A DNA stretch of 64,000 nt. It comes from Olsenella profusa F0195. Lineage in GTDB: Bacteria; Actinomycetota; Coriobacteriia; Coriobacteriales; Atopobiaceae. The DNA lies in assembly GCF_000468755.1 (NCBI RefSeq), contig NZ_AWEZ01000064.1, forward strand, positions 1 to 64,000, in the 5' to 3' direction. A model generated the notes under the pieces. It was not told the DNA's origin and did no database searches. It saw only the letters and a program-made list of their open reading frames with translations. Of the stretch, positions 7,871-64,000 are shown in pieces; within the stretch, counting starts at the first letter, position 1; every line of letters begins with the position of its first letter. The position numbers and the translations under genes are program-made.

Positions 7871-8353
7871 ATGTCAGGCAAGCGCAAGGACGCCATCACG
7901 TGGGACGAGTTCTTCATGCGGGTGGCGTACGCCGCCAGCCTGCGCAGCAAGGATCCCCAGACGCAGGTGGGTGCCTGCATCGCCGACACCAACCAGCGCA
8001 TCCTCTCCGTAGGCTACAACGGCACGCCGGAGGCACTCTCCGACGAGGAGTTCCCCTGGGACGTCACGGACGACTCCATCCAGGACAAGCACAACTTCGT
8101 GATCCACGCCGAGGCCAACGCCATCCTCAACTACCGCGGTTCGCTCAAGGACGTGCAGGACGGCACCATCTACGTCACGCTGTTCCCCTGCCAGGAGTGC
8201 GCGAAGACCCTGGTGCAAGCGGGCATCGGTGAGGTGGTCTACCTGGACGACAAGTATCATGACACGGAGGGTGCCGAGGTCTCGCGCCTCGTCCTTGACC
8301 GCTGTGGCGTCACGTACCGGCAGGTCTCGCTGCCCGTTGACGCCCTCGTCTGA
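7871..8353 (+). CDS. Deoxycytidylate (dCMP) deaminase
   Basis: This 160-residue zinc enzyme converts dCMP to dUMP and so feeds thymidylate synthesis. The zinc and catalytic residues are His79 and Glu81 in HAEANAIL and Cys107 and Cys110 in PCQEC. The substrate loop GYNGTPEALSD is conserved. The ATG at 7871 is preferred over an in-frame upstream codon because GGGAGG lies at the right distance. It resembles the ComEB-type enzymes of Gram-positive bacteria in length and motifs. The window also carries dut and nrdR, other parts of deoxynucleotide control, though not in the same operon. Confidence 0.92.
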   Translation: MSGKRKDAITWDEFFMRVAYAASLRSKDPQTQVGACIADTNQRILSVGYNGTPEALSDEEFPWDVTDDSIQDKHNFVIHAEANAILNYRGSLKDVQDGTIYVTLFPCQECAKTLVQAGIGEVVYLDDKYHDTEGAEVSRLVLDRCGVTYRQVSLPVDALV

Positions 8354-8398
8354 GGCCGTGGCATGTCACGCCAACCCACGAGCCCCAAGGGAGCCACC

Positions 8399-9466
8399 AT
8401 GAAGACGCACAAGGTCGCACTCATTCCCGGCGATGGCATCGGACCCGAGGTCATCGCCGAGGGAATCAAGGTGCTCGATGCCGTGGCGGCGTACGACGGT
8501 GGCTTCTCCCTTGAGTTCACGGAGTTCCCCTGGGGCTGTGAGCACTACCTCAGGACGGGCGAGATGATGCCGGCCGATGGCATCGACACGCTCAGCCACT
8601 TTGACGCCATCTTCCTGGGCGCCGTGGGCTATCCCGGCGTGCCGGACCACGTCTCCCTGCGCGACCTGCTGCTGCGCATCCGTCACGACTTCGACGAGTA
8701 TGTGAACGTACGCCCTGTGCGCCTGCTCAGGGGTGCCCCGTGTCCCATCAAGGGCGTCAGCCAGGCGGATGTGGACATGACCTTCATCCGCGAGAACTCC
8801 GAGGGGGAGTACGCTGGCAACGGTGCATGGCTCTACAGGGGCACCTCGCGTGAGGTGGTCATACAGGATGGCGTGTTCTCGCGCTACGGCACGGAGCGCG
8901 TCATGCGCTATGCCTTCGAGCTCGCCCGTTCCAAGCACCAGTCGCTCACGAGCATCTCCAAGGGCAACGCCCTCAACTATTCCATGGTGTTCTGGGATCA
9001 GATCTTCGACGAGCTCTCGCAGGAGTATGCCGATGTGGAGACCCATTCCTACCTGGTGGACGCCGCCTCCATGCTCATGGTGAGGGACCCCGCGCGCTTC
9101 CAGGTGGTCGTGGCCTCCAACCTCTTTGGTGACATCCTTACCGACTTGGGTGCCGCCATCGCTGGTGGCATGGGTCTGGCGGCTGGCGCCAACCTCAACC
9201 CCGAGCGGGTCTTCCCCTCCATGTTCGAGCCCGTCCACGGCTCTGCGCCCGACATCGCGGGCCGCGGCATCGCCAACCCGCTCGCGACCGTGTGGTCCGC
9301 CAGCCAGCTCTTGGATCACCTGGGCCACCCGCAGTGGGGCGCGCGCCTCATCGACGCCATCGAGCGACTCCTGGTCGAGGCGAAGACGCTCACGCCCGAC
9401 CTTGGCGGCACGGCCAGCACGCAGCGCGTGGGCGATGCCGTGGTGAGGCTTCTGGCAAACGACTGA
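8399..9466 (+). CDS. ttuC: Tartrate/D-malate dehydrogenase (isocitrate/isopropylmalate dehydrogenase family)
   Basis: This 355-residue NAD-dependent beta-hydroxyacid oxidative decarboxylase starts KVALIPGDGIGPEV. It carries the family loop TFIRENSEGEYAGNG, the divalent-metal aspartates in ASNLFGDILTDL, and the cofactor loop FEPVHGSAPDIAGRG. The sequence VDMTFIRENSEGEY and the length fit the tartrate dehydrogenase/D-malate decarboxylase branch rather than LeuB or Icd. Candidate substrates are D-malate, L-tartrate and meso-tartrate. The ATG at 8399 has an AAGGGAG site, while another ATG 36 bases earlier has none. No other leucine or tartrate genes are nearby, so the physiological substrate is open. 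Confidence 0.82.
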   Translation: MKTHKVALIPGDGIGPEVIAEGIKVLDAVAAYDGGFSLEFTEFPWGCEHYLRTGEMMPADGIDTLSHFDAIFLGAVGYPGVPDHVSLRDLLLRIRHDFDEYVNVRPVRLLRGAPCPIKGVSQADVDMTFIRENSEGEYAGNGAWLYRGTSREVVIQDGVFSRYGTERVMRYAFELARSKHQSLTSISKGNALNYSMVFWDQIFDELSQEYADVETHSYLVDAASMLMVRDPARFQVVVASNLFGDILTDLGAAIAGGMGLAAGANLNPERVFPSMFEPVHGSAPDIAGRGIANPLATVWSASQLLDHLGHPQWGARLIDAIERLLVEAKTLTPDLGGTASTQRVGDAVVRLLAND

Positions 9467-9566
9467 CTGACACGTGAGGGCCGTCCTTCTTTTGCGCTAG
9501 GATGTACTACCGTGACTGCAGGGCTACGCGTGGGGCGGTGCAGGCCGAGCGAGGGGGTACACGCCA

Positions 9567-10313
9567 GTGACACAAGTGAGACATGGCCTTACGCATCGGC
9601 TGTCCGAACGCGTGATGATGGGCGTCGACCCCTCCGTTGCTGGCGCGCAGGCCGCGGGGACGATCACGGCCCCCCTTGGCACCTCGGGGAATCCCTCTCA
9701 TCGGGTGCTGACGGCCGCCAACGCAATCACGATGCTCCGCCTCGTCCTCACGGTCGTGTTCCTCGTGCTCTTCGTGCGGCATATCAACCGAACGCTCGCG
9801 CTTGCCTGCTATGCCGTGGCAGCCGCCACCGACTTCCTCGATGGGCAGGTGGCCCGCCGTACGCAGACGGTCAGCTGGTTGGGCAAGGTCATGGATCCCG
9901 TGATGGATCGCGTGCTGCTCTTCACGGGCGTTCTCGCACTCTTGGTGACCGGCGAGCTCCCGCTCTGGACGGCCGTGTTCGTGATTGGTCGTGACGTCTA
10001 CCTCCTGATTGGTGGGATGATGCTTCAACGCTATCGCAAGCGTCCCGTCGACGTCGCCTACGTGGGCAAGGCCGCCACGGCCGTCCTCATGACGGGCTTC
10101 GTGCTCATGCTGCTCAAGTGGCCGCCGCTTGCAGCGCTCCATCTCGTCCGTGCCGTCTGGTTGCCCGGCATCAACGGCACCGATTCCTGCGTGGGCGTGC
10201 TCTTCGTCTACCTGGGATGCGTCCTGTCCTTCATCACGGCGGTCGTCTATACGCGCACGGGCCTCACCATTCGCAGGAAGTGCCTCGAGTCCCAGGGGGG
10301 CGGGTCTCGATGA
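9567..10313 (+). CDS. CDP-alcohol phosphatidyltransferase
   Basis: This integral membrane enzyme (248 residues, about five or six hydrophobic segments) transfers a phosphatidyl group from CDP-diacylglycerol to an alcohol. The full signature D-x2-D-G-x2-A-R-x8-G-x3-D-x3-D is visible, from TDFLDGQVAR to GKVMDPVMD. The start is GTG 9567 after GAGGGGG, giving a ~45-residue hydrophilic N-terminus; an ATG about 48 bases downstream is possible. A second family member (pgsA) lies at 34227-34880, so this one may make cardiolipin or another lipid. It overlaps the next gene by four bases (ATGA), implying coupling to a cell-wall carboxypeptidase. Confidence 0.85.
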   Translation: MTQVRHGLTHRLSERVMMGVDPSVAGAQAAGTITAPLGTSGNPSHRVLTAANAITMLRLVLTVVFLVLFVRHINRTLALACYAVAAATDFLDGQVARRTQTVSWLGKVMDPVMDRVLLFTGVLALLVTGELPLWTAVFVIGRDVYLLIGGMMLQRYRKRPVDVAYVGKAATAVLMTGFVLMLLKWPPLAALHLVRAVWLPGINGTDSCVGVLFVYLGCVLSFITAVVYTRTGLTIRRKCLESQGGGSR

Positions 10314-11464
10314 GGGCCGGCATCGCACTGGCCACCTTCGCGCTGTGCTCACTCATGGCGGTCGCCGTGGTGCCCCGCGCCTACGCGTATGCCGCTGAGG
10401 TGCCAGAGCCCCAGGTGAGCGAGGCACAGTGCTACTTCGTCTCCGACGGTGCGGGTCACACCATCCTCGAGAGGAACGCCGACCAGCAGATGGAGCCGGC
10501 TTCGATCACCAAGGTCATGACGGCGATGGTCGTTCTGGACTCCGGCGCCAGCCTCGATGCCCCCGCGACCATCACACGTGGGGACTATCAGGATGACGCC
10601 CAGATTGCGGAGCTCAAGCCAGCCGATGGCGTCACCGTGCGCCAGCTGTTCCAGCTCATGCTCATCTATTCCGCCAACGATGCGGCGGACAACCTTGCCA
10701 TCAACGTCTTCGGCTCCATAGACGCCTGTGTGGATCGCATGAACCAGAAGGCACGGGAGCTGGGCATGACGGGCACGCGCTTTGCCAATGTGCACGGCCT
10801 CTCCCAGGATGGCCACTACTCGTGTGCGCGTGACCTCGTGACCATGGGGCGCTACGCCCTCGAGCACTACCCGCTCATCGCCCAGACCGTACACATGCGT
10901 TCCGTGGACGTCACGCTGGGAGGAGAGCAGAGGACCTTCCGCTCCACCGATGACCTCATGGAGACCTATGCGGGGCTGAGGGGCATCAAGACGGGGGTCG
11001 TCGAGAGCGGCAAGGCGTTTTTAGGCGCCTCCACGCATGGTACGGTCTCCGTCTACAGCTGCGTTTTGGGCTGCTCCACCAACGACGGCCGCTTCGCGGA
11101 CACGGAGGCGCTCATGAGCTGGGCCTACGAGCATTACTTCTCATGGCGGCGCATGAGCGAGGCGGCACGGACCGTGCGATGGGTCACGAGCACGCTGAGC
11201 TTCCATGGCAAGTTGGCCATCACGGGCTCGTACGACGTCTACGGCCGCTTCTCGCCCGACGAGCCCATCTCCTATACGGTGCACATGCCTCCCGAGGGCA
11301 CGCTGCAGGATGCCGGCGGCATCTACGGCGTGACCGTGTGGACGCAGGATGGCGTCGCCCCCTGCGCGCAGGTGTTCCGCGCAAGCAAGCGGCTCTATCA
11401 GGTCTCCATGTTCGAGCCCCTCGTGATGTCGCTGCTCTACCCAGCGCCTGTGGAGGCGGCATAG
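10310..11464 (+). CDS. D-alanyl-D-alanine carboxypeptidase (S11, PBP5/DacF type)
   Basis: This exported penicillin-binding protein of 384 residues trims the terminal D-Ala from peptidoglycan stem peptides. A signal peptide with hydrophobic core ALATFALCSLMAVAVV ends near AYA. The three active-site motifs are Ser65-x-x-Lys68 (SITK), Ser121-Ala-Asn123 (SAN) and Lys227-Thr-Gly (KTG). A C-terminal beta-rich domain follows residue ~285. No clear C-terminal amphipathic anchor is seen. Its ATG overlaps the stop of the upstream lipid gene, and a GcvT-like gene follows after nine bases, so the three genes form one operon. Confidence 0.9.
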   Translation: MRAGIALATFALCSLMAVAVVPRAYAYAAEVPEPQVSEAQCYFVSDGAGHTILERNADQQMEPASITKVMTAMVVLDSGASLDAPATITRGDYQDDAQIAELKPADGVTVRQLFQLMLIYSANDAADNLAINVFGSIDACVDRMNQKARELGMTGTRFANVHGLSQDGHYSCARDLVTMGRYALEHYPLIAQTVHMRSVDVTLGGEQRTFRSTDDLMETYAGLRGIKTGVVESGKAFLGASTHGTVSVYSCVLGCSTNDGRFADTEALMSWAYEHYFSWRRMSEAARTVRWVTSTLSFHGKLAITGSYDVYGRFSPDEPISYTVHMPPEGTLQDAGGIYGVTVWTQDGVAPCAQVFRASKRLYQVSMFEPLVMSLLYPAPVEAA

Positions 11465-11473
11465 GGGGAACGC

Positions 11474-12313
11474 ATGGCAACGTCTGTCCTCAGGCAGGAG
11501 CATGAGCTCTTGGGTGGTCTCATCCAAGAGGAGGGGGCGCTCCTGGGTCCCGTTCGCTATGCGGATGAGGACGTGGAGCTGGCGGCCTTTGACGTAGATG
11601 CCGCGCTCGTCGACCTTACGGGCATGGGCATGTGGCTTGTCTCGGGTGCTCCCGCCCAGGCGTTCTGCGAGGCCGCATGTGCGGGCCCCAGGCTTTCCGT
11701 GGGGACGTGCGCCCTTGGGGCCTGCCTGCTGGGGGATGGCAGCGTGGCCTCCGTTCCGCTGCTCGTGCGTACGGGTGCCTCCGAATACCTTATCCTCGAT
11801 GCCTCCCCTCGCATGGACGTGCTCTTCTCGTGGTTGGGCTTTGTGGCACACATCGAGCGAGACGGCGTGAGGCCGTACGATGGGCTTGCCATGTCGGATG
11901 AGACGGCCTCGCTCGTACCCCTCGCGCTCACGGGCCCCACTGCCCCTGCCGTGCTTTCCGACTACGTGCCAGGGGATGTGCACCAACGGCTCCCCCTGGC
12001 TGGCGAGGTTGCCAACCTCGACCTCGACGGCCGCATCACCACCATCGTCTGTGCCCTTGACCTTCCCCAGCCCGCCTATCTGGTGCTGGTGCCACCCATC
12101 TATGCGCGCGCCATATGGCGGAGCCTGCTCTCGTTTGGCTCCGTGATGCCTGTGGGTCACGCTGCCCTGCGCACATGGATGGCGCGGAGGACTGCGGTGC
12201 TCTCACAACTCCCTGTTCCCGATCGCCTGACGATAGGGGAGGGGGAGCTGCGTGCCTCTGGTATGGTGCGCGAGGGTATGGACTTCATCGGGGCACGTGG
12301 TCTTGCGGGCTGA
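11474..12313 (+). CDS. GcvT/YgfZ-like folate-binding protein
   Basis: This 279-residue protein resembles the N-terminal folate-binding domain of aminomethyltransferases and YgfZ. Signs are DVDAALVDLTGMGMWLVSGA (about residues 40-59) followed by a region on presenting a one-carbon unit. It is shorter than GcvT (~360), and the usual C-terminal barrel is reduced. No other glycine cleavage genes are adjacent. It may be a YgfZ-type Fe-S maintenance factor or an unassigned one-carbon enzyme. It has a GGGGGAA ribosome site and follows the carboxypeptidase gene by nine bases. The family-level call is fair; the function is open. Confidence 0.6.
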   Translation: MATSVLRQEHELLGGLIQEEGALLGPVRYADEDVELAAFDVDAALVDLTGMGMWLVSGAPAQAFCEAACAGPRLSVGTCALGACLLGDGSVASVPLLVRTGASEYLILDASPRMDVLFSWLGFVAHIERDGVRPYDGLAMSDETASLVPLALTGPTAPAVLSDYVPGDVHQRLPLAGEVANLDLDGRITTIVCALDLPQPAYLVLVPPIYARAIWRSLLSFGSVMPVGHAALRTWMARRTAVLSQLPVPDRLTIGEGELRASGMVREGMDFIGARGLAG

Positions 12314-12397
12314 GTATTCCCATGCATGCCACCTCTCGCCTACAATGGGGCTGAGACGTTTGTCACGTTCTACCTTTGCATTTGGAGGGAGAGTGCT

Positions 12398-13624
12398 ATG
12401 TCCTATGACTTCTCGACCCTGCCGCGCCGTGCCCATCATGGTTCCGCAAAGTGGGAGGCTATGGCGAGGAAGGTGCCTGATCTCTCGCCCGAGGTGGTTC
12501 CTTTGTCCGTTGCGGACATGGAGTTCGTGCCCGCGCCACCCATCACCAAGGCCCTCAAGGACTATCTCGACGAGCAGCCCCTCGGATACCCTGCCCCCAC
12601 GGAGGAGTTCTATGACGCCTGTACGGGCTGGCAGAGTCGCCGGCACGGCTGGGAGCCCGACAAGACGTCCCTCGTGAACACGCCGGGTGTGGTGCCCGCC
12701 ATCTATACAGCCGTGCGCACGCTCACCGAGCCACGGGACGGCGTCATCATCCAGCCTCCCGTGTACTATCCGTTCGCCCGCGCCATCAGGGACAATGGTC
12801 GTACCGTCGTGGAGAGCCCCCTTTGCCGCGAGCTGACGCAGGATGGCGGGCTTGCCTATTCCATGGACTTCGAGGGACTCGAGGAGCTGGTCAAGGATCC
12901 CGCCAACACGATGCTCGTGCTGTGCAGCCCGCATAACCCCGTAGGCAGGGTATGGAGTGCCGTCGAGCTCAGGAGGCTCCTGGACATATGCGTCGCCCAT
13001 GACGTCATAATCGTTGCCGACGAGATCCATGACGACCTCGTCATGCCGGGCTACAAGCACAGTGCCCTCATGCGGGTTGCCGAGGGCGGTGAGTACGACC
13101 GTCTCGTCATCTGCACCGCCCCCTCCAAGACCTTCAACATCACGGGCATACAGTCCGCACAGATCTTCATCACCGACGAGGAGCTGCGCAGGCGCTTCCG
13201 GCGGGGGCTGGCCGAGATCGGCACGGACTCACTCAACTCCCTTGCCTACGTTGCGACCACGGCGGCCTACACGGCCCGTGACGAGTGGCTCGACGAGCTC
13301 GTTGCCGTCATCTGGAGCAACTACCAGCTGCTCAGGGGAATGGTGGAGCGCTATCTGCCCGACGTGCGGATCGCGCCGCTTGAGGGCACCTACCTTGCCT
13401 GGCTCGACTTCAGGGCCTGGGGAATGACCGATCGTGAGCTTGAGGACTTCATGGAGGGGGAGGCCTCCGTCTTCGCGGAGGGGGGATACCTCTTTGGCAC
13501 GGGTGGGGAGGGGTTTGTGCGCCTCAACCTTGCCTGTCCCCGCGAGGTGCTCGAGAGTGCGCTGGAGCGTCTGGTCTATGCCACCAACCAGCGTGCGCGT
13601 CCCTGCGAGAGGGATGACCGATGA
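12398..13624 (+). CDS. MalY/PatB-family pyridoxal-phosphate C-S lyase
   Basis: This 408-residue fold-type I PLP enzyme belongs to the cystathionine beta-lyase MalY/PatB group, which splits C-S bonds and releases a thiol, pyruvate and ammonia. It shows the N-terminal KWEAM and SVADMEF, the substrate region QPPVYYPF, the CSPHNPVGRVW motif, DEIHDDLVMPG (PLP-binding Asp) and the Schiff-base Lys244 in APSKTFN. An ATG at 12398 with GGAGGGAG upstream fits the family start. The stop overlaps the ATG of a RidA gene by four bases. PLP beta-lyases release 2-aminoacrylate, which RidA proteins deaminate, so the pairing makes biochemical sense. Confidence 0.9.
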   Translation: MSYDFSTLPRRAHHGSAKWEAMARKVPDLSPEVVPLSVADMEFVPAPPITKALKDYLDEQPLGYPAPTEEFYDACTGWQSRRHGWEPDKTSLVNTPGVVPAIYTAVRTLTEPRDGVIIQPPVYYPFARAIRDNGRTVVESPLCRELTQDGGLAYSMDFEGLEELVKDPANTMLVLCSPHNPVGRVWSAVELRRLLDICVAHDVIIVADEIHDDLVMPGYKHSALMRVAEGGEYDRLVICTAPSKTFNITGIQSAQIFITDEELRRRFRRGLAEIGTDSLNSLAYVATTAAYTARDEWLDELVAVIWSNYQLLRGMVERYLPDVRIAPLEGTYLAWLDFRAWGMTDRELEDFMEGEASVFAEGGYLFGTGGEGFVRLNLACPREVLESALERLVYATNQRARPCERDDR

Positions 13625-54441: not shown

Positions 54442-55703
54442 GATAGCCTGCCGAGCAGGCTCGCGTCATCCAAGACGGAGCGGACGCACGCCCGCACGAG
54501 GGATCCCACGGGTACCGAGGGATCAAGGTGCAGGTCAAAGAGGCCGCCCGTCACACCGCGGCCCGCGCGCTCCACAAGGACCAGCTGCTCGGATCCCACC
54601 ATGCGCTCGGCCTCCGACCGGCGCATGCGACGGGCCAGCTCCCGCATGCGACGGCTCCGTCGTGCCATCTCCCGGGGGTCGACCTGCCTGGGCGCCGTGG
54701 CGGCGGGTGTGCCGGGACGCCTGGAGTAGCGGAACACGTGCATGCGCGAGAAGGCCATCTCCTCGCAGAAGGCCAGGCTCTCCTCGAACTCGCCCTCGGT
54801 CTCGCCAGGAAAGCCCACGATGAGGTCCGTCCCCAGCGAGAGCTTGGGCAGCCGATCGCGTGCGTATGCCACGACCTGGCGATACGCCGCCGTATCGTAG
54901 GCCCGGCACATGCGCCTGAGCGTGGCATCCGATCCCGACTGCAGGCACACGTGCAGGAAGGGGGCCACGCGCCCGCCGTGACGTGCCATGGCGTCCACCA
55001 GCCGCTCCGTCACGTCGGGCGGCTCGATGGAGCCGATGCGCACGCGCCCCACGTCCGAACGCGCCATGACGAGGTCGAGAAGCCCCGCAAGGTCGAGCCC
55101 ACCGTCCCGATAGCGGCCGATGTTGATGCCCGTGAGCACGACCTCCCGCGCCCCTCGCCCGCAGGTCTCGTCCAGACGGCTCAGCACCTCGACCGCCGGG
55201 AGCGAACGGCCTCTGCCCCGTGCCTTCCATACGATGCAGTAGCTACAGCGGTTGTCACAACCGTCCTGGATCTTGATCGCGGGTCTCGTGCGCCCCGTGG
55301 GCGTCACGCCCTCGCAGGCAGACGGTACGCCACCCCCTTGGCCCACCAGCGAGATGACGCGCCCTGCCACCAACGACTTGTCCGCCTCGACGGTCACGTT
55401 GGGGGCAAGGCCCGAGAGCTCCGACGCAAAGAGGCTGGCAACGCAGCCTGTGACGATGACCTCGGGCGCCTGTGCGAGCGTCGCCATGCGACGCACCGTC
55501 TTGCGCGTCTTTGCCTCGGCCTCACCCGTCACGGCACAGCTGTTGACCACGATGGCGTCCGCGGCCGCGGGTGCGGTGGGGACAAGCCCAGCGGCCTCGA
55601 GCCGCGCCGCGATGTCGTCGAGCTCCACGCGGTTGACGCGACAGCCTAGGTTGACGAAGGCGACGGAACCGCCGCTCACGAACGCTTCCTCCCGCGGCGC
55701 CAC
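54438..55703 (-). CDS. mtaB: tRNA t6A37 methylthiotransferase MtaB
   Basis: This 421-residue radical SAM enzyme adds methylthio to t6A37 in ANN-reading tRNAs. Cluster ligands are Cys21 (NLGCRVN), Cys56, Cys87 and the radical SAM cysteines 149, 153 and 156 (CDNRCSYC). [12 protein letters not shown] and [13 protein letters not shown] are typical. It has the short C-terminal TRAM-like end of MtaB rather than the MiaB form. Its start overlaps dnaJ by 28 bases in another frame. dnaJ-mtaB-phoH order matches many Firmicutes and actinobacteria. Confidence 0.93.
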
Positions 55704-56857
55704 GCCCGGTTGCCACGCCGCTCGCCCGCCCGGGCGTCAGGACCCGACGCCCCACCCGCACTCCTGCCCCTGCGGACGTCCACCATCCGCGCGATGGCGT
55801 CGCGCTCCTCGTGCGTAAGGTCCTGGGGCGTGCTCACCTGCACGATGCAGAACAGGTTGCCACGGGCATTGGAACCCAGACGGGGCATCCCGCGCCCCTC
55901 CACGCGAATCTGTTCCCCGTACTGCGTGCCTCCCGGAATGGCGACCCCCACGACCTCGTCCGCCAGAATGCCGCAAACGCTCACGGTGGTTCCCACGACG
56001 GCTTCGAGGGAATCGACCGTCACCCTGCAGAAGAGGTCATCGCCCTGACGCTCGAACGTGGCATGCTGCTCGACGTCAATGGAGACCACGAGGTCACCGG
56101 ACGTGGCACCCCGTACGCCCGCCTCGCCCCTGCCCGTAAGCGAGAGCGATTGTCCCGCATGCACGCCTGCGGGCACCTTGACCTCCACGGTCTCGCGCGA
56201 GGGCGTGCGACCTTGGCCGTCGCAGGTCTCGCAGGGCTTGTCGATCACCTGGCCGGTGCCACCGCAGTCGGGACACACGCTCTGTGACTGCATCTGCCCA
56301 AAGATGGTGCGCTGGACCTCGACCACGCGACCGGTGCCGCCGCAGCGCTTGCAGGTGGCCTGGTGGCCGCCCTCGGCAGCGCCCGTGCCACCGCAGTCGT
56401 CACAGGGGGCAAGGCGCTCGTAGGAGATGGTCTTGGTGCAGCCCGCCGCCGCCTCCTCGAGGGTGATGTGCAGCGTGATGCCCATGTTGCGGCCCTGCGT
56501 GCGCCCGTTGCGCTGCCCCGAGGAGCCACCCCGGCCCCCAAAGAATGAGTCAAAGATGTCATTGATGCCAAAGCCGCCACCAAAGATGTCTGACATGTCC
56601 ACATAGTCGGCCCCAAAGCCGCCGGGGCCCTCGGCGGTGCCATATCGATCGTAGTTGGCACGCTTGCGCTCGTCGGACAGGACGGCATATGCCTCGTTGA
56701 CCTGCTTGAACTTCTCCTCGGCATGAGGGTCGTCACTCACGTCGGGATGCAGCTGGCGCGCCTTTCTCAAGAAGGCGCGCTTTATCGTCTTGGCGTCAGC
56801 CGAACGGTCGACGCCCAAGATGTCGTAGTAGTCAGTCTCAGATGCTGCCAATCTCAC
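55676..56857 (-). CDS. dnaJ: Chaperone DnaJ
   Basis: This ~393-residue Hsp40 has a J domain ([15 protein letters not shown] in LHPDVS), a G/F-rich stretch, four zinc repeats ([32 protein letters not shown]) and a complete C-terminal substrate-binding region. The ORF has no ATG at the expected place; GTG 56857, four bases after GGGAG, is used, while TTG 56851 or TTG 56860 are alternatives. The C-terminus has a basic tail ([14 protein letters not shown]). No dnaK or grpE is next to it, so this is probably a DnaJ2-type locus. Confidence 0.92.
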
Positions 56858-56914
56858 CAATCTCCCAAGCAAACGTCAACGTACATCCACTGCCACGCGC
56901 CACCATGGCTCACC

Positions 56915-58018
56915 TTATCTGCCGGTGTAACCGGAATAGCCCATGGAGACGCACCCCTGCATCCACTCAAACAGCAGCGCAAAGAAGATCGCGTTGGTTG
57001 CACCTCCGGCCATGGCACGCGAGCCCTGCTGCCACCATCTCTTAGGGTGCCTGACCCCCTCGCGGAAGGCAAACCAGCTTCCCAAGAGCAGCAGCACCAC
57101 GATGATGCCAGCCATGGACGCAAGGTCATTGAAGATGAGGCCCAGTAGGATGAAGGGCAGTGCGAACCCCAGCGTGGAGAAGCCAAACTGCTGTCGGGGT
57201 GTCACGCGCTCCCCCGCCACGCTCACGCGGCACACGAAGTCGCCCGCCTCGCTGCCGTTGGTGCCCGCATTGCCCATGCCCGACACGCGCACCTCGTCGC
57301 CATCGTGCGCGTGGGCGGGAATCGTGACCACCACCTCGCTCGCAGAGAGCACGCGACCGCTGCCCCCGCAGGTCGGGCAGGGATCGATGACCACCTTGCC
57401 CGTGCCCTCGCACTCGGGGCATTCCATCTCGAACATGCCGATGCCGAAGAGTCCCGTGAGGTCCACGGACATGTGGCCCGTGCCTCCGCAGGTGGGGCAG
57501 GTCTCGGCATGCTCGCGGTGCACGGAGCCCTGACCCGCACAGGCATCGCAGCTCACATAGCGCTGGTAGGTGACGCCACGCGTACAGCCCTCCCGTGCCG
57601 CCTCCTGGTCGAGCTCCACCTCGTAGATGACATCGGCACCGGCCTTGGGGTTGTAGGAGCGTGAGCGGACCGTCCGACCTGCCCGGCCTCCAAAGCCATC
57701 GAAGGGGAAGCCCCAGCCAAAGGGCGATCCCCACACATCGCCCCCATAGGTTCGTGGGTCCTGAGGTGGCGCACCGGCCCCATAGCCAAAGGAAGCACCG
57801 GAACGCATGGCATCATAGCGGCGGCGCTTGTCGTCATCGGACAGGACGGCGTAGGCTTCGGAGACCTCCTTGAAGCGCTCCTCGGCATCCGGTGCCTTGT
57901 TGACGTCCGGATGGAGCTTGCGTGCCTTCTGCTGGAAGGCGCGGCGGATGTCATCCTTGGATGCACTCTTGTCAACGCCAAGGATCGCGTAGTAGTCCTT
58001 CTCGTTCATGGACGCCAT
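56915..58018 (-). CDS. Membrane-anchored DnaJ-like protein
   Basis: This 367-residue protein has a J domain (HPD at 36-38), a glycine/aromatic-rich linker and the four-repeat zinc region ([32 protein letters not shown]), plus one beta module ([16 protein letters not shown]). The second C-terminal beta domain and dimerisation region are replaced by about three hydrophobic segments (~281-297, 301-318 and ~337-352). It would place a J domain and zinc finger at the inner membrane face. ATG 58018 has GGGAG eight bases upstream. It lies 57 bases before dnaJ, presumably after a gene duplication. Confidence 0.8.
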
Positions 58019-58049
58019 AGAGGGGTCTCCCAAAGCTGTAAAGGCTGGA

Positions 58050-58083: not shown

Positions 58084-58134
58084 ATTCACATGGCGCAAAG
58101 CAAACAGAAGGAGGAAAGTGGACGTGGGGATGGT

Positions 58135-58977
58135 CTACTCCTTCCAAGAGGCAATTTCGAGTTCTGTCTCCTCCCCCTTCTTCTCCTTTGTCACTCCCAG
58201 CTCCATATTGATGGCGTACAGGATGGCGTCAGCCATGAGTAGTTCACCTAAGTGGCTCTCAAGGCCATGCTGTATCTTCGTTAGAATGCCATCGCTTGAC
58301 CCAGAGTCTATCGCGCAGTGTGCTGCCTTGCCAATCGTAGACTCGAGGTCGCCGGTCATTGCAATCACCTTGAGCTTGTGTCGTTTCGCAAACTTGACGA
58401 TTTGCAAGGTTATCGTTGATGATCCCGACTTCGAAATGGCAACGAGCACGTCGCCAGGGCCCGAATTGGCGACGTAGTTCATGGTGTTTTCGGGGACTGC
58501 CGAAGAGAACGACCGAATCCCAAAGCGATTGAGCCGAAAGGATACGTCCTGCGCAATGGCGGCAGTGTTTCCGGCACCGGTAACGACAACTATGTCCGCC
58601 TTGCAAAGCATCTTGGCGGCCTTTGCAATGGCTTCTTTGTTGCCTTCGTTCTCCAGGGTCTTAAGGCGGGCAATATCCGTGTTGATGACGTGACCGATGG
58701 GATCCTCATCGATGTTGTCCGTCTCGGTGGTACCTCTATAGCCGATGTCGCGGGACATGGCAAGACGCATCTGGTAATATCCCTTAAAACCCGCGTGCTG
58801 GCACATCCTTACAATCGTTGCATCGCTGACCCCACTTGCCTTTGCAAGGGTGGATGTACTCATCTCAAGCACTGACTCGGGATTGGCCATGACATACTTG
58901 GCAACTTTACGCTCTGCGTCATGCAGCTTTGGGTAGGAGCCACGAAGAGTATCGATAACGCTGGTTTGCTTGTTCAT
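58135..58977 (-). CDS. RpiR-family transcriptional regulator (HTH + SIS)
   Basis: This 280-residue regulator has an N-terminal HTH_6 domain (LHDAERKVAKYVMANPE and TLAKASGVSDATIVRMCQHAGF, ~20-75) and a C-terminal sugar isomerase (SIS) domain that binds phosphosugars (VVVTGAGNTAAIAQDV and VLVAISKSGSSTIT). ATG 58977 with GAGGGG upstream fits the family start. It lies just downstream of the lyxose/PTS operon on the same strand, behind a strong hairpin, and is the likely sensor of its phosphorylated product. The base composition is lower in GC than the neighbouring dnaJ genes, as in the whole sugar operon. Confidence 0.9.
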   Translation of the reverse strand: MNKQTSVIDTLRGSYPKLHDAERKVAKYVMANPESVLEMSTSTLAKASGVSDATIVRMCQHAGFKGYYQMRLAMSRDIGYRGTTETDNIDEDPIGHVINTDIARLKTLENEGNKEAIAKAAKMLCKADIVVVTGAGNTAAIAQDVSFRLNRFGIRSFSSAVPENTMNYVANSGPGDVLVAISKSGSSTITLQIVKFAKRHKLKVIAMTGDLESTIGKAAHCAIDSGSSDGILTKIQHGLESHLGELLMADAILYAINMELGVTKEKKGEETELEIASWKE

Positions 58978-59058
58978 GTGAACATACCCCTCGCTGTCGC
59001 CAACTATCGTTAACAGTAGCTGATATCTCTCGTGACATGCTCCGTTATTCCTGGGTGT

Positions 59059-59093
59059 GTCTCCCAACGTGCCCTTACGGCACGTTGGGAGAC
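59059..59093 (-). terminator. Strong hairpin at the end of the lyxose/PTS operon
   Basis: A perfect 15-bp stem (59059-59073 with 59079-59093) and a five-base loop lie 15 bases past the lyxose isomerase stop and before the RpiR gene. No T tract follows on either strand, so termination may be factor-assisted; an RNA-stabilising role is also possible. Confidence 0.75.
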
Positions 59094-59108
59094 AGTGCGC
59101 CTTTGTGG

Positions 59109-59798
59109 TTAAAACGTAACATAATGCTTGTAGTCGGCATAGACGAGGTGGCGAGCTGGTTCGTCCTCCTCAACGCCGGGGATACGGTCTCCTACGTCAA
59201 TGAAGTTGTTATCGGTGAAGTCATCGTTACACTTGGAGACCTCAAAGGCCATGACATCACCCTCTCCAGGAATCGCCTGCCAGGTGTGATACTGATGGGG
59301 ACGCAACGTGATGCTCTCACCGGGGCTGAGCACGATACTACCGCCTGCCGGTACCGTCACGTTCCGTCCGTCCACATCTATGGTGACATCCTCATTTGAA
59401 AAGCCATCGTCATCCGCTGCCTGATAGAGCGTGAGTGACAGACGACCACCCCCTCGGTTGATAATGTCTTCCATTTTGTTCCAATGGTAATGATACGGGA
59501 GAATCTGGGAGTCCATGACATAGAGAAGCTTCTCGCAGTAGGGCTTTTGGTAGACCTCAGGCTTATGAACATTGCCATTCCTGAAGACAAAGGAGGTCAA
59601 TCCCGTCTTCTTGAAGTCTCCACCAAAGTCGGTAACATCCCATCCGAGCATGTTGTCGACTATCTCCCGATGATCCTCGCCAATCCCCTTCCACTCATCC
59701 GGCGTCAGGTATGCAAAGGGCGGAAGCGGCAGCCTGAACTCATCCCTACACGCCCTCATCACGTATTCGATGGCCGTATTGATCTCAGAGCGCCTCAT
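59109..59798 (-). CDS. D-lyxose isomerase (cupin)
   Basis: This 229-residue cupin metalloenzyme interconverts D-lyxose and D-xylulose (and D-mannose and D-fructose). The metal motif lies in YHYHWNKMEDIINRGGG (two His and a Glu), with a second His in RPHQYHTWQ. The N-terminal MRRSEINTAI start is typical. It overlaps the DUF4432 gene by 14 bases and belongs to an operon with xylulokinase, which would phosphorylate the D-xylulose formed. The family assignment is strong. Confidence 0.9.
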   Translation of the reverse strand: MRRSEINTAIEYVMRACRDEFRLPLPPFAYLTPDEWKGIGEDHREIVDNMLGWDVTDFGGDFKKTGLTSFVFRNGNVHKPEVYQKPYCEKLLYVMDSQILPYHYHWNKMEDIINRGGGRLSLTLYQAADDDGFSNEDVTIDVDGRNVTVPAGGSIVLSPGESITLRPHQYHTWQAIPGEGDVMAFEVSKCNDDFTDNNFIDVGDRIPGVEEDEPARHLVYADYKHYVTF

Positions 59799-60879
59799 GT
59801 GATCTCTCCTCTACTTGTACAGTGTCGCTAATGAACTGACGCACCTCGTCAGGATCGTCATAGATACGCAGCCTCACACCAAAGTGTCTGCGCTCCTGCG
59901 GCCCAATCGTCTTCATACGCCCTGCCGTACGTTCCGCGCTTCTTCCGCTCACAAAGGCATTCCCCGGTTCGATCCCCGCCACGTAGTTACCCTCTCCGAG
60001 AAACTTCCATTGCGTCAGACAGTCCAGTTCGTTGCGGAGGAACCGAATGCCAACCGCAAGGCCTATACCCTCGTTCGCAATGCCTGCCGTGCAGATGCCC
60101 CTTTGGTCAGCGAGCTGATGATAGTAGACGATGTCCTTGTAATGAGGCGTGGGGGCGAGGTAACACCAGTAGGGCTCTAGGCATGCGGCCGCATCACGGT
60201 CACGTGGTTCCACTGAACAGGAACGCCCGACAAATCGTGCGCCAGCATCCAATAGTGGATGCCCGAAGTTGAAATGGTAGAGAATCATGAGCTCAGACTC
60301 TTCGAACCCCTCGTTCTCCACCGTGTCGTCCACCTTAATCTCGTTACGCCCCACATCAATGAAAATCTTTCGATGTAGCACGAGGTTGCATCTCAGCGCC
60401 TTGGACTCTCTGACGTCACCAGAAACGAATATGCATTCCCGACCGTCATGTTCGGTCATCCCGTAAGAGACTGCCGTCGCGGGGATGTTTGAAATCCTGC
60501 CATGCAGGGGAAGGATCTCCCCACCATCCCGCTCGGGGCTACCGGTCGACGTAAGCCCACCGGTGACGAGCAGGCCGCCACCGTAACTCCTGAGCCAGCC
60601 ATCCTCGTATGCCTCGTAGTAGTCAGGGGCAACTTCCTGGTTGTATGATTGGTAAGAGATGGGCACGCCATGTAGGGCAAGCCTACCCAAATCCATCCCG
60701 CGGCTGGAGTTGACCTCCAGTATGAGACCTGCCCCATTGTTCACCTGCAGAATATGACTCCCCTGGGAGCGGCCCTCTTCGAGAACGAAGCGCCGCACGC
60801 CACAGAGCTGCGACGGATCACCGAAATATCGGCGGACGTCAGCACCCACATATGTCCGCCCCCTGACCGTCGCCCTCAT
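59785..60879 (-). CDS. DUF4432 (aldose-epimerase-like) protein
   Basis: This 364-residue protein of the galactose mutarotase-like fold shows EVNSSRGMDLGRLALHGVP, GLLVTGGLTSTGSPE, LPLHGRISNIPA and LYHFNFGHPLLDAGA, which mark the DUF4432 family. The His in LHGR and in HFNFGHP could act in catalysis. It may help anomer or epimer conversion of the transported sugar, but no activity is established for the family to my knowledge. It overlaps xylB by four bases and the isomerase by 14, so all three are co-translated. Confidence 0.75.
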   Translation of the reverse strand: MRATVRGRTYVGADVRRYFGDPSQLCGVRRFVLEEGRSQGSHILQVNNGAGLILEVNSSRGMDLGRLALHGVPISYQSYNQEVAPDYYEAYEDGWLRSYGGGLLVTGGLTSTGSPERDGGEILPLHGRISNIPATAVSYGMTEHDGRECIFVSGDVRESKALRCNLVLHRKIFIDVGRNEIKVDDTVENEGFEESELMILYHFNFGHPLLDAGARFVGRSCSVEPRDRDAAACLEPYWCYLAPTPHYKDIVYYHQLADQRGICTAGIANEGIGLAVGIRFLRNELDCLTQWKFLGEGNYVAGIEPGNAFVSGRSAERTAGRMKTIGPQERRHFGVRLRIYDDPDEVRQFISDTVQVEERSHEAL

Positions 60880-62354
60880 GACAGCATCATCTTCCGCTCA
60901 TGGAAAAAGTCCCGCAGTGAGGGGTATAGATGCCGATAGGATTCGTAGGCTTCCTCATAGCGTGGAATCGCACTCTCATCCGGCGTAATCCTGTGACCTT
61001 CCTGGGGCAGTGAGGCACAGGCCTCGCTGACGCTTTCGTATGCCCCTGCAGCAACAAGTCCCAAGATGCAGGAGCCTAAGCCCGGTCCCCTTTCGCCGTC
61101 CAAGACGAAGACCTCGCGTCCCAAGACACTTGCGACGATGCGTACCCAGAGGGCATTACGAGAGCCGCCACCACAGAGGGATACCTCCGAGACGTCCATC
61201 TCCGTCGACAGCGTGCGCTCGAAACTATCCCTCAGCGCAAACGCAACGCCCTCCATCACCGCCTGCGTCATCTGGTCGGCATGCGTGTCAAGGCTCATGC
61301 CCAGGAAGGCACCTCGGGCCTCGGCATCGTTGATGGGCGAACGTTCTCCCATCAGATAGGGCAGGAACATGACAGGGTTGTCTCCTAGGCGTACCCTCTC
61401 TAGGTTCTTGGAAACGCTATTACCTAGGACGTCATTCCACCAGGTATAGGCAGATGCTGCGCTCAGAATGCATCCCATGAGGTAATAGCCACCCGTGGCA
61501 TCGGCAAATGAGTGCAGGGCCGCATGTGGCTCACAGCGAAACCTCTTGGAGGGGGTGATGACTGTTCCGCTCGTTCCGATGGAAAGGAGGCACTGGCCCT
61601 CGTGCACGACACCACATCCCACGGCGGCGACGGCGTTGTCTCCCCCACCGGCCACCACAAGCGTTTCAGGACGCAACCCGAGCACCGAGGCCACATCGGG
61701 ACGAAGCGTCCCCACCGCTTCGTAGCTCTCATGGACCTGCGGGAGTGCGCTAACGTCAATGCCGCACCTCTCAAGCATCTCCGGCTGCCAACGTCTGTGC
61801 CTCACGTCAAAGAGGAGGGTACCGCTTGCATCCGAGACGTCCGTGCAGAAGGCTCCCGTGAGCTTGTATGCCAGATAGTCCTTGGGAAGCATCAGCTTCG
61901 CCATGCGTGCGAAGTTGTTCGCCTCGTTTCTGCGCAACCAAAGGACCTTAGGAGCCGTAAAGCCCGGGAAGGCGATGTTGGCACACCAGGAGAGCAGTCG
62001 CTCCCTTCCCACGTGCTCGTTGAGGTAGATGCACTCCTGTGTGCTGCGTCCGTCGTTCCAGAGAATCGCAGGACGAACCACCGTGTCATCCTCATCAAGG
62101 ACAACGAGACCATGCATCTGTCCGCAGAAGCTCATGGCGCGCACGGAGCTTGGGTCAGCCTTGGCCGACGCAAGGCACTCTTTGACCCCCATGAGAGACT
62201 CCCTGTACCAATCCTCGGGATTCTGCTCAGACCAACCACTGCGGGGATGTTCGCAGGGGTACGCTCGCGTGGCGGTCGCCAACACCTTCCCCCGTTCGTC
62301 AGCAAGAATGACCTTGACGGACGAGGTGCCCAGATCTATACCAAGTACCTGCAT
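60876..62354 (-). CDS. xylB: Xylulokinase
   Basis: This 492-residue FGGY carbohydrate kinase opens VLGIDLGTSSVKVILAD (phosphate-1 loop). It has FCGQMHGLVVLDED with the catalytic-region sequence, NDGRSTQEC, SDASGTLLFDV and the C-terminal LCGGGSRNALWVRIVASVLG. The pattern fits xylulokinase better than glycerol or ribulo kinases. ATG 62354 has GAGAGGAA upstream. It would make D-xylulose-5-phosphate from the product of the lyxose isomerase in the same operon. The link with PTS genes is unusual. Confidence 0.88.
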   Translation of the reverse strand: MQVLGIDLGTSSVKVILADERGKVLATATRAYPCEHPRSGWSEQNPEDWYRESLMGVKECLASAKADPSSVRAMSFCGQMHGLVVLDEDDTVVRPAILWNDGRSTQECIYLNEHVGRERLLSWCANIAFPGFTAPKVLWLRRNEANNFARMAKLMLPKDYLAYKLTGAFCTDVSDASGTLLFDVRHRRWQPEMLERCGIDVSALPQVHESYEAVGTLRPDVASVLGLRPETLVVAGGGDNAVAAVGCGVVHEGQCLLSIGTSGTVITPSKRFRCEPHAALHSFADATGGYYLMGCILSAASAYTWWNDVLGNSVSKNLERVRLGDNPVMFLPYLMGERSPINDAEARGAFLGMSLDTHADQMTQAVMEGVAFALRDSFERTLSTEMDVSEVSLCGGGSRNALWVRIVASVLGREVFVLDGERGPGLGSCILGLVAAGAYESVSEACASLPQEGHRITPDESAIPRYEEAYESYRHLYPSLRDFFHERKMMLS

Positions 62355-62433
62355 GCTCGCACGTTCCTCTCCGGGAGGTGCCCAAGCTGGCACCCCCGAT
62401 GTTCAATCATGCAGCTCATAAGGAGCGAAGCCA

Positions 62434-63525
62434 TCAATTTTCGGTAAAGCTGAGGTCATCGAAGCTCACGTCGTCTCCCGCATCGATGCCGGCAGCAGCG
62501 TCCTCTGGCTTATGCTTCAAGAACTGCAGGGCAATTGCGAAGACCACTGATCCGATTGCCAGAGCAATGAGCCAAAGAACCGGCTTGTTGATACCGGGAA
62601 TGGCAACAAAACCGCCCGATGGGACCTTAGAGGAGATGTCCCACAGCCCACAGAGCGCGCCGCTCACGCCTGCCCCAAGCGCTGTGCAGATAGTGATGCG
62701 GAAAAAGTCGTTCAGGATGATGGGAAAGGATCCCTCTGTGATCTGGAAGACGCCCATTACGAATGCCGTCTTGATGGCTTCCGTCTCCTCCCTCGAGAAA
62801 AGCTTTCTCTTGGTTGCGATGGAGATGAGGTAGCCGATGGTAAGGCCGAAGGGTGCAATCATGCTTGCCTGAATGAGATTTGCGATGGGCCCTCCCTGAC
62901 CCTCGGACAGGAGACCGACACTGAAGGCAAAGACCACCTTATTGATGGGACCGCCGTAGTCAACGGCAGAGAGAATGCCCACCACGAGACCAAACAGCAC
63001 GGATGCGCCCATGTTTCCTGACATAGATTTCAGCAGGCCCGTAATGGCATCGGTTAACCACGTGATGGGAACGCCGATAACATACTGCATAGCAAGACCA
63101 ATGACGAGCGATCCAATGAGTGGAAGGATGAGCTGCGGCAAAAGCCCTTGTACCCAGCCGGGAACCCTTAAGCTCTTAAGGAGCCACCTTGTCAGGAAGC
63201 CAACAAGGAAGCCGGAAATAATGCCGCCGATAAAGCCGAATCCGCTTGACTTGCAGAGGATGCCAAGCACCACGCCAGGTGCAATGCCGGCCTTGTCCGC
63301 AATTGAGTACGAAATACCTGCCGAAACGATGACGGGAATGAAGCCGAGGCACGTGCCTCCAAGCGTGGTAAGCAAATCAGGAAGGGATATCGTCGCACTG
63401 AAGGCATCCAGCGATGTTCCCCCAAGCAAGTTACCAATAACCATGAGCATGCCCGATGCGGCAACGTAGGGAATGAGGTATGCGATTGCCGTCATAAGAT
63501 GCTTTTTCAACTGAAGATTCTTCAC
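62434..63525 (-). CDS. Fructose-type PTS permease, IIC component
   Basis: This 363-residue membrane protein has about eight to ten hydrophobic segments and forms the sugar channel of a fructose-family PTS. Conserved strings are GVSYSI-like SAGISYSIADKAGIAPG, GFGFIGGIISGFLVGF, VDYGGPINKVVFAF and ITEGSFPIIL with the key Glu. The IIB and IIA parts are separate genes upstream. The C-terminus has an acidic tail. The transported sugar is unknown; the enzymes downstream suggest a pentose or a related sugar. Confidence 0.92.
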   Translation of the reverse strand: MKNLQLKKHLMTAIAYLIPYVAASGMLMVIGNLLGGTSLDAFSATISLPDLLTTLGGTCLGFIPVIVSAGISYSIADKAGIAPGVVLGILCKSSGFGFIGGIISGFLVGFLTRWLLKSLRVPGWVQGLLPQLILPLIGSLVIGLAMQYVIGVPITWLTDAITGLLKSMSGNMGASVLFGLVVGILSAVDYGGPINKVVFAFSVGLLSEGQGGPIANLIQASMIAPFGLTIGYLISIATKRKLFSREETEAIKTAFVMGVFQITEGSFPIILNDFFRITICTALGAGVSGALCGLWDISSKVPSGGFVAIPGINKPVLWLIALAIGSVVFAIALQFLKHKPEDAAAGIDAGDDVSFDDLSFTEN

Positions 63526-63582
63526 TCGTTCCTCCCTATGTGAGATGTATGCATGGATATATGGCCCGTTCCAAGGCGTGTT

Positions 63583-63894
63583 CTATGCAGAAAGCATTCG
63601 CTCGAGCTTCTGGATGAGCCCATTGGCATTCTTCACGACAGCGCTCGTTGGAACCTCAACCACCTTCTTGCCCTTGAAGCGCTCGCGTCCCGTGATCGAA
63701 ACATCAACGGCAAGGATTACGACATCGGCATTGCGTATCTGCTCAGAGGTCAGTTCATTTTCCTGTCCGATGACGCCCTGTGTCTCGACGCAGATCTCGT
63801 GACCCCTGGCCGTGGCGGCGTCAACTAACTTCTGCTGTGCTAAATAGGTATGGGCTATGCCTGCCACACAGGCACAGACGCCTACAATCCTCAT
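63583..63894 (-). CDS. Fructose-type PTS IIB component
   Basis: This 103-residue cytosolic domain carries the phosphocysteine near the N-terminus in VCACVAGIAHTYLAQ (the family pattern is CPTGIAHT). The C-terminal AVDVSITGRERFKG is typical of the fructose subfamily. It receives phosphate from IIA and passes it to the sugar in IIC. AAAGGGGAGAG lies just before the ATG. It sits between the IIA gene and the IIC gene. Confidence 0.93.
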   Translation of the reverse strand: MRIVGVCACVAGIAHTYLAQQKLVDAATARGHEICVETQGVIGQENELTSEQIRNADVVILAVDVSITGRERFKGKKVVEVPTSAVVKNANGLIQKLERMLSA

Positions 63895-63921
63895 TCTCTC
63901 CCCTTTCCTTTCCGTACATTG

Positions 63922-64000
63922 CTACCTAAAGCAGTCGATCACCTCTCCTGGGCTGTCCGCGCCAAGGAGCCTTTCCGTTACCTCGTCGCTTGCGAGATGG
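63922..64000 (-). CDS. PTS IIA component, C-terminal end, cut by window edge
   Basis: A minus-strand frame is open from the window edge to TAG at 63922-63924 and encodes 25 visible residues ending LGADSPGEVIDCFR. The pattern LASDEVTERLLGADSPGEV matches the last helix of fructose/mannitol-type IIA domains. The IIB gene follows after 27 bases. The phosphohistidine region is outside the window, so the call rests on this end and on operon context. Confidence 0.7.
   Translation of the reverse strand, partial: HLASDEVTERLLGADSPGEVIDCFR

Follow-up and report, generated by a model that had tools for sequence, protein, structure and literature searches.

Why an operon whose PTS would deliver a phosphorylated sugar should also encode an isomerase and a kinase belonging to families that act on free sugars is the question raised at one end of a 64,000-nucleotide stretch of Olsenella profusa F0195 (contig NZ_AWEZ01000064.1, positions 1 to 64,000; hereafter the window). 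The genes named in the original prediction were all found there as full-length, closely spaced ORFs on the minus strand, and the conflict it described is real for the genes within the window. The three ways out that it listed (separate entry of the two sugars, a dephosphorylation step or other substrates), however, miss a fourth, namely an aldolase that frees the sugar. It also suggested looking upstream for the rest of the operon, and an EIIA and a class II aldolase were found beyond the end of the window (Table 1). The fourth way out is suggested only by this outside sequence: the first gene of the operon encodes an aldolase, an enzyme able to free a sugar from a phosphorylated one.

The eight genes are read here, tentatively, as one catabolic route in which the aldolase would turn the product of the PTS into a free sugar, a reading that we consider possible rather than probable. 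A fructose-type PTS would import a long-chain ketose and phosphorylate it at C1; the class II aldolase would then cleave this ketose-1-phosphate, releasing DHAP and a free aldose; the DUF4432 protein would interconvert the ring forms of the freed aldose; the D-lyxose/D-mannose isomerase would convert this aldose into a ketose (D-xylulose, or D-fructose), which the XylB-type kinase would phosphorylate; and the RpiR regulator would control the operon. All of these reactions are predicted, chiefly that the aldolase acts on a ketose-1-phosphate whose far end is unphosphorylated.

The genes, their order and their conserved company can be read from the sequences compared. The operon runs on the minus strand in the order aldolase-EIIA-EIIB-EIIC-XylB-DUF4432-D-lyxose isomerase-RpiR, with intergenic gaps of 39, 27, 57, 40, -4 and -14 bp from the aldolase through the isomerase. 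Pfam and NCBIfam profile searches revealed neither a phosphatase nor a second importer among the eight genes, so that an extra phosphatase in the operon was ruled out; a 1-phosphofructokinase (PfkB), the mark of the fructose (fru) PTS operon, was also absent from the eight. For the regulator, which carries HTH_6 and SIS domains, the ATG at 58977 is a likelier start than the TTG at 59067, which would give a longer ORF. The inverted repeat preceding the regulator gene may act as a terminator or an attenuator; no riboswitch or other known RNA was matched in the 64-kb window at the Rfam gathering score. The sequence also shows horizontal arrival of the operon: the segment that holds it has a G+C content of 54.7% as against 65.0% in the flanks, and is missing in G177, the only genome of the same species compared.

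Table 1. Features of the operon and of the segment that carries it (contig coordinates, identical to window positions up to 64,000).
Feature	Position	Strand	Evidence or remark
Class II aldolase gene, first of the operon	64423-65292	-	outside the window
PTS EIIA, fructose family	63922..64000 (3' end, 79 bases in the window); whole gene 63922-64383	-	
PTS EIIB, fructose family, ACVAGIAHT loop	63583..63894	-	Pfam, NCBIfam
PTS EIIC, fructose family	62434..63525	-	Pfam, NCBIfam
Xylulokinase-type FGGY kinase	60876..62393	-	XylB model TIGR01312 (NCBIfam), 543.3 bits, cut-off 380.25
DUF4432 protein, probable aldose 1-epimerase (mutarotase)	59785..60879	-	Pfam, structure matches
D-lyxose/D-mannose isomerase family (PF07385, cupin)	59109..59798	-	Pfam, NCBIfam, structure match, alignment
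RpiR/MurR-family regulator (HTH_6 + SIS), last gene	58135..58977	-	Pfam
Perfect inverted repeat, 16 bp arms, 5 nt loop	59058..59094		between isomerase and regulator genes
7,496-bp segment	58113-65608 (58113..64000 within the window)		
Paired GAAATTTCGT/ACGAAATTTC elements	65327-65369		inside the 7,496-bp segment, beyond the window

The PTS components appear able to phosphorylate a sugar. The fructose-family EIIA, EIIB and EIIC are encoded by three separate genes; EIIC scored 58.4 bits against PTS_EIIC and EIIB 72 against PTS_IIB (Pfam), and the fructose models of NCBIfam gave 209.6 bits for EIIC (cut-off 157.55) and 99.9 for EIIB (76.85). EIIB has the ACVAGIAHT loop with its cysteine, and EI (601 bits) and HPr (97.8 bits) are encoded elsewhere in the genome. 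The presence of EIIA, EIIB with its loop cysteine, EI and HPr speaks against facilitated diffusion, by which EIIC would admit unphosphorylated D-lyxose (or xylulose) and the isomerase and XylB would act as in ordinary D-lyxose use. Such entry has a precedent, D-xylose reportedly entering lactobacilli through the mannose PTS (Chaillou, 1999), and the kinase lies far above the TIGR01312 cut-off; facilitated diffusion would, however, leave no task for the aldolase, which is present in 8/9 of the PTS loci considered below, and is regarded as very improbable.

Of the two enzymes that appear to act on free sugars, the kinase carries FGGY_N and FGGY_C domains (Pfam) and the isomerase scored 285.9 bits against Lyx_isomer (PF07385; gathering cut-off 20.8). 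At 213 bits, the isomerase missed the cut-off of 350 of the D-lyxose/D-mannose isomerase equivalog NF051472, so that 'D-lyxose isomerase' is used here as a family name and the activity is only predicted. Its sole close solved structure is 3KMH/3MPB, whose metal/catalytic-region residues H103, H105, K108, E110, D111 and H171 are invariant in the seven relatives aligned. DUF4432 (296.1 bits, Pfam) had been described as having no known reaction, a statement that can be softened, as the protein most closely resembles aldose 1-epimerases (mutarotases) and is probably one; DUF4432 would thereby gain a likely reaction. The PDB entry that it matches best is 3TY1, both in sequence (5e-35) and in fold (4.6e-21, from a model with a pLDDT of 59.8 and with YidC domains also matching well). 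A profile comparison with PF01263 proteins, made with only five and four sequences, gave 0.1% and hence no support for homology. True aldose epimerases (PF01263) occupy the place of DUF4432 in three PTS loci, and a mutarotase-like protein adjoins the isomerase in seven of the nine (four DUF4432, three PF01263), an arrangement that would be senseless unless a free aldose were present. Neither a mutarotase nor XylB adjoins the isomerase in the Pectinatus locus, L010 ends after the isomerase and the E. coli locus has no mutarotase gene.

Gene neighbourhoods were compared for 52 isomerase loci, nine with a PTS and 43 without; a set of 46 loci had been found by motifs of the window isomerase and hence does not form a random sample. 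Relatives of the operon occur in Selenomonadaceae, lactobacilli and E. coli. An aldolase lies within the same gene run in 8 of the 9 PTS loci as against 7 of the 43 others (Fisher p = 6.6e-5, with relatedness ignored and three Lactobacillus, two Mitsuokella and pairs of Propionispira as non-independent relatives); the ninth locus, L009, begins 634 bases before EIIC, so that its upstream side is missing. A neighbour in L099 that resembled phosphomannose isomerase (21.3 bits, cut-off 22) was not used.

These neighbourhoods also bear on whether the operon serves two sugars, with the PTS and the aldolase taking one ketose (its ketose-1-phosphate yielding DHAP and a small aldehyde) and the mutarotase, the isomerase and XylB taking free D-lyxose or D-mannose brought in by an unlinked carrier. 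The halves can stand alone, as the isomerase occurs without a PTS in 43/52 loci, in some of them next to alpha-mannosidases of GH92 or GH38, and the same-class neighbourhoods of the PRK08185 aldolase subfamily contain a fructose-type EIIC in 15/15, a ROK kinase in 10/15 and the isomerase in 0/15. Against this, both halves are kept in a single gene run at eight separate loci in several phyla, and the eight-gene window operon has no free-sugar importer; two independent sugars seem somewhat unlikely. Among the ROK kinases, the three scanned had the fructokinase ScrK as their best fit, and that next to the E. coli PTS had the fructokinase PRK09557; all four scores lay below the model cut-offs. A PTS, a PRK08185 aldolase and a free-sugar kinase thus form a recurring set, which speaks for the single proposed route.

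The linear order may also be reversed, with free D-lyxose or D-mannose isomerised, the ketose phosphorylated at C1 and the aldolase yielding DHAP and glycolaldehyde or glyceraldehyde. This order fits the ABC-type loci having an isomerase, an aldolase and an FGGY or PfkB kinase (L006, L011, L018, L019), in which the isomerase and aldolase pair lies beside a free-sugar importer. The EcSI locus of E. coli O157/O55 (D-lyxose isomerase 3KMH/3MPB) is of this type: its PF07385 isomerase adjoins a class II ketose-phosphate aldolase as in the window, but with an ABC importer and a PfkB kinase in place of a PTS, so that the O157 operon was ruled out as a PTS-linked example. For the ABC-type loci the order isomerase-kinase-aldolase is just as plausible, which counts against the proposed route. 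For the window operon it is considered distinctly improbable, since the PTS would be left without a role; moreover, the ABC-type L015, L017 and L052 have two FGGY kinases, one beyond its need.

The aldolase itself scored 408.9 bits against PRK08185 (cut-off 405; the E. coli copy, 525.9) and 270.9 against the ketose-bisphosphate model TIGR00167 (cut-off 215.6), and missed, at 282.3 bits, the cut-off of 343.05 of the class II fructose-1,6-bisphosphate aldolase equivalog TIGR01859. The basic residue of the 'DPR' motif of FBA contacts C6 of FBP according to a Listeria paper (PMC4973958), whose Arg257 is 258 in the alignment numbering used here. The window enzyme has Asn at this position (EPN), and the 26 rows labelled PRK08185-like have N in 19, K in three, a gap in two, and M and A in one each. 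Lys (DPK), not Arg, was found in 15/15 controls, which are ordinary aldolases of the same class, and three Lactobacillus operons also have an aldolase with Lys (EPK); since Lys may still bind phosphate, the argument from this residue is not clean, and loss of phosphate-binding residues is weakened as proof. Because the controls vary at the Ser of the SEG motif as well, that residue was set aside. Second among the solved relatives of the window aldolase is YdjI (6OFU), which also lacks the basic residue and reportedly favours C7-C9 ketose-1-phosphates. It differs in that its substrate has a charged end and that the ydj cluster of E. coli K-12, unlike the window operon, is not known to contain a PTS.

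The same enzyme could instead act in an ordinary ketose route, in which the ketose-1-phosphate from the PTS receives a second phosphate from the XylB-like (or ROK) kinase before the bisphosphate is cleaved by the aldolase, and free aldose would join from the side through the isomerase. Such an order is the textbook one for fructose and tagatose and agrees with the TIGR00167 score. To our knowledge, however, neither FGGY nor ROK kinases act on sugar phosphates, the operon has no PfkB-type 1-phosphofructokinase and the Arg for the C6 phosphate is replaced by Asn in the window enzyme; this route is judged improbable.

With D-lyxose or D-mannose as the freed aldose, the single proposed route would have to start from the import of an L-gluco octulose or nonulose. 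We know of no source of such C8/C9 ketoses for the bacterium, and no report of PTS uptake of such an octulose or nonulose was found in the literature searched. Rabbit aldolase forms D-glycero-L-gluco-octulose from DHAP and D-lyxose (PMC5854111), and D-erythro-L-gluco-nonulose is reported from avocado. A bolder and unlikely version would make the window operon and a frz-like island of E. coli PTS routes for C8/C9 ketoses, with D-glycero-L-gluco-octulose (DHAP + D-lyxose) and D-erythro-L-gluco-nonulose (DHAP + D-mannose) being imported, phosphorylated at C1 and cut in the window system, and one lyxose/mannose isomerase serving both.

Operons of this kind are known but unexplained, and that of the window is a variant for which a testable prediction of the substrate can be made. 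The E. coli island (L005; 6.9 kb, present in 1,581 of 5,426 E. coli genomes) is probably, as we take it from gene content, size and its site between genes recognised as yicI and yicH, the frz operon of extraintestinal pathogenic E. coli (ExPEC; Rouquet et al., J Bacteriol, 2009), whose reported size is 7,227 bp; we know of no sugar identified for frz. The island has in common with the window a fructose-type EIIA, EIIB and EIIC, the PRK08185 aldolase and the PF07385 isomerase, but further encodes another class II aldolase, together with a kinase of the ROK family and a regulator of the PRD/Mga type, none of which is among the eight window genes, where XylB, DUF4432 and RpiR are found instead. 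The existence and effects of frz are on record in PMC12928451 and PMC3325963, the former tying it to ExPEC fitness, adhesion and internalisation. If the aldolase does free the sugar, a class of sugars to test would be at hand for frz, for the operons of Selenomonadaceae and bee lactobacilli, and for the numerous sets that combine a PTS, a PRK08185 aldolase and a ROK kinase. The same logic would account for a wider oddity, that enzymes for free sugars stand behind a PTS; sucrose operons offer an analogy, with the second half there being released by a hydrolase instead of an aldolase.

In the EIIC tree the window groups with four rows from Selenomonadaceae (100/100, on a long branch flagged by the program), whereas the aldolase tree does not join them, and congruence of the two trees was dropped as an argument. 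The PTS operons of Mitsuokella, Propionispira, Pectinatus and Lactobacillus (L013, L010, L022, L038, L042, L046) resemble that of the window in having EIIB, EIIC, a PRK08185-like aldolase and the isomerase in one run, but differ in gene order and in their PRD-type regulators, where seen. XylB is shared with the Mitsuokella and Lactobacillus operons, while Mitsuokella and Propionispira have a PF01263 epimerase where the window has DUF4432.

The PTS, isomerase, kinase and DUF4432 genes of the original prediction were all found on the minus strand (58135-63894) of the window, which covers bases 1-64000 of a contig of 109,378 bases. Examination of the upstream sequence, proposed there as the place for the remainder of the operon, adds a fructose-type EIIA gene and then a class II aldolase gene at the operon start. 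The seven metabolic genes are separated by at most 57 bp, with overlap in two pairs, and a 16-bp hairpin sits between the isomerase and the regulator genes. The paired elements GAAATTTCGT and ACGAAATTTC, with 23 bp between them and about 35 bp upstream of the aldolase start, occur once in 19 kb (0 of 200 shuffles) and, with up to one mismatch allowed, nowhere in the window; they are a possible candidate site for the regulator.

Features of the operon and of related loci
Feature	Position	Strand	Remark
Class II aldolase, 289 aa	contig 64423-65292, beyond window	minus	first gene of operon
EIIA, fructose-type	contig 63922-64383	minus	after aldolase
EIIB	63583-63894	minus	precedes EIIC in transcription
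EIIC	62434-63525	minus	after EIIB
FGGY kinase	60876-62393	minus	after EIIC
DUF4432	59785-60879	minus	after FGGY kinase
PF07385 isomerase	59109-59798	minus	after DUF4432
RpiR regulator	58135 to about 58977	minus	last in operon
Perfect 32-bp inverted repeat, 3-nt loop	L003 9466-9532 (contig 65465-65531)		just upstream of operon, lying between operon and ABC1-kinase gene
Tandem DnaJ-type genes	55676-56872 and 56915-58033	minus	directly adjoin operon
Second aldolase set, same genome	L097 (G000:C20:56000-74000), about 6765-12754		without isomerase; common to same-species G177
Methyltransferase-like gene, G177	L112 8663-9484		methyltransferase domain
Isomerase relative, G298 (same family)	L111 4378-6057		40% identical; adjoins xylose-isomerase-like TIM barrel protein; not PTS

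PTS import would yield a phosphorylated sugar, a ketose-1-phosphate, whereas the isomerase and the xylulokinase belong to free-sugar families. The aldolase could reconcile the two because, placed between them, it would split the ketose-1-phosphate into DHAP and a free aldose, and free sugars would then serve the putative mutarotase, the isomerase and the xylulokinase. This explanation is preferred here, tentatively and at somewhat less than even confidence.

Isomerase neighbourhoods were compared at 52 loci (46 from species-representative genomes, four from a plasmid collection, the window operon and the G298 locus). PTS genes share the isomerase's gene run at nine: the window, E. coli L005, Mitsuokella L009 and L013, Propionispira L010, Pectinatus L022 and Lactobacillus L038, L042 and L046. 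An aldolase is present in eight of these, the exception being L009, whose contig begins 634 bases before EIIC, and in 7 of the 43 loci without PTS (L006, L011, L015, L017, L018, L019 and L052), giving a Fisher's p of 6.6e-5 with a statistic that ignores kinship. All seven carry an ABC importer with an FGGY or PfkB kinase. Separate entry of a PTS sugar and a free sugar in parallel is possible but less probable than release by the aldolase, and facilitated diffusion of free sugar via EIIC is the least probable of the explanations. The ABC-type loci L015, L017 and L052 each encode a pair of FGGY kinases, and their aldolase relative of 335 aa has differing catalytic motifs (HLDHVQH, LGTEHRA). Further isomerase loci adjoin PfkB kinases or alpha-mannosidases of families GH92 or GH38, a sign that free mannose is frequently encountered by this isomerase family.

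A mutarotase-like gene adjoins the isomerase in seven of the nine PTS loci (DUF4432 in four, PF01263 in three). The only PDB sequence match of the DUF4432 protein is 3TY1, a 'hypothetical aldose 1-epimerase' (5e-35), which also leads the fold matches of a structure model whose quality is modest (mean pLDDT 59.8, pTM 0.68). Of the five matches ranked after it, four bear the title galactose mutarotase or aldose 1-epimerase, with YidC periplasmic domains close behind. H126, H202 and E304 are invariant across five DUF4432 proteins and resemble, and may correspond to, the catalytic His, His and Glu of GalM, for which PDB titles list the mutants H96N, H170N and E304A. Profile comparison of DUF4432 with PF01263 proteins gave no support.

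The window aldolase keeps the catalytic motifs HLDHG, GTAHG, LHGGS and KVNISSD and has Asn at the position of the DPR arginine. Among 26 aldolases labelled PRK08185-like according to best seed, this position holds N in 19, K in three (all Lactobacillus), a gap in two, and M and A in one each; Lys occupies it in 15/15 ordinary same-class aldolases. By these counts, with the Lys of the controls, the window, E. coli and Selenomonadaceae aldolases have lost a basic residue kept by fructose-1,6-bisphosphate aldolases (FBAs), while the Lactobacillus ones kept theirs. YdjI, which favours C7-C9 ketose-1-phosphates, likewise lacks the basic residue of the DPR motif. According to PMC4973958, where numbering is off by one, the DPR arginine interacts with carbon 6 of fructose-1,6-bisphosphate. 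The ordinary bisphosphate route, a second phosphate followed by the aldolase, appears improbable, and the reverse linear order, isomerase to kinase to aldolase, similarly so.

The window aldolase narrowly passes the PRK08185 model (408.9 bits, cut-off 405), which is matched above cut-off in 14/197 same-class genomes. Fifteen neighbourhoods in the class (14 places above cut-off outside the window operon and one at 389.5 bits) all contain a fructose-type EIIC, with an RpiR gene in 14, a ROK kinase in 10, a second class II aldolase in nine and the isomerase in none; two aldolase sets include a Gfo/Idh oxidoreductase. A second set in the window's own genome (contig C20) combines PTS genes, two class II aldolases, a ROK kinase and RpiR. 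Three ROK kinases scanned each have ScrK fructokinase as top model (222.8, 239.5 and 260.5 bits, below the cut-off of 400), and release of free sugar by the aldolase would also explain such fructokinase-like genes in isomerase-free sets.

At E. coli L005 the isomerase is accompanied by EIIA, EIIB and EIIC, a pair of class II aldolases, a PRD/Mga regulator and a ROK kinase (top model fructokinase PRK09557, 318.7 bits, below the cut-off of 443); this set occurs in 1,581/5,426 E. coli genomes. Its gene content agrees with that of the frz operon of ExPEC. PMC12928451 (2026) gives a frz region of 7,227 bp in BEN2908 with reported fitness, adhesion and internalisation phenotypes; on this footing, L005 is likely, though not proven, to be frz. 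The window operon resembles frz in transporter, aldolase and isomerase and differs in kinase, mutarotase-like gene and regulator.

Candidate substrates were derived with a Fischer-projection script for DHAP and aldose adducts, which recovers the three adducts given in PMC5854111 (D-ribose, L-arabinose and D-lyxose). Applied further, this rule pairs D-lyxose with D-glycero-L-gluco-octulose and D-mannose with D-erythro-L-gluco-nonulose, while DHAP plus D-glucose gives D-erythro-L-galacto-nonulose. Both nonuloses are listed as avocado sugars (PMC6826385; a title among the references of PMC5854111). For the L-gluco octulose no plant record was found, and it is absent from the Table 1 octuloses of the PMC5854111 review; no octulose, nonulose or mannoheptulose was paired with a PTS among the literature matches listed. 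The specific C8 or C9 substrate is put forward at low confidence.

The operon segment of 7,496 bases (contig 58113-65608) is absent from the same-species genome G177, which has a 1,021-bp stretch with the methyltransferase-like gene at this site and matches the two flanks at 99.6% and 99.0% identity. Segment G+C is 54.7% vs 65.0% in the flanks. PF07385 is present in only 1/296 class genomes sampled, the window's own, and a relative of the isomerase in 2/140 family genomes, the second on a contig of 7.1 kb and among other neighbouring genes. Given this absence, lower G+C and rarity, the operon is strain-variable and was probably acquired. The tandem DnaJ-type genes have a 119-bp stretch in common at 74% identity.
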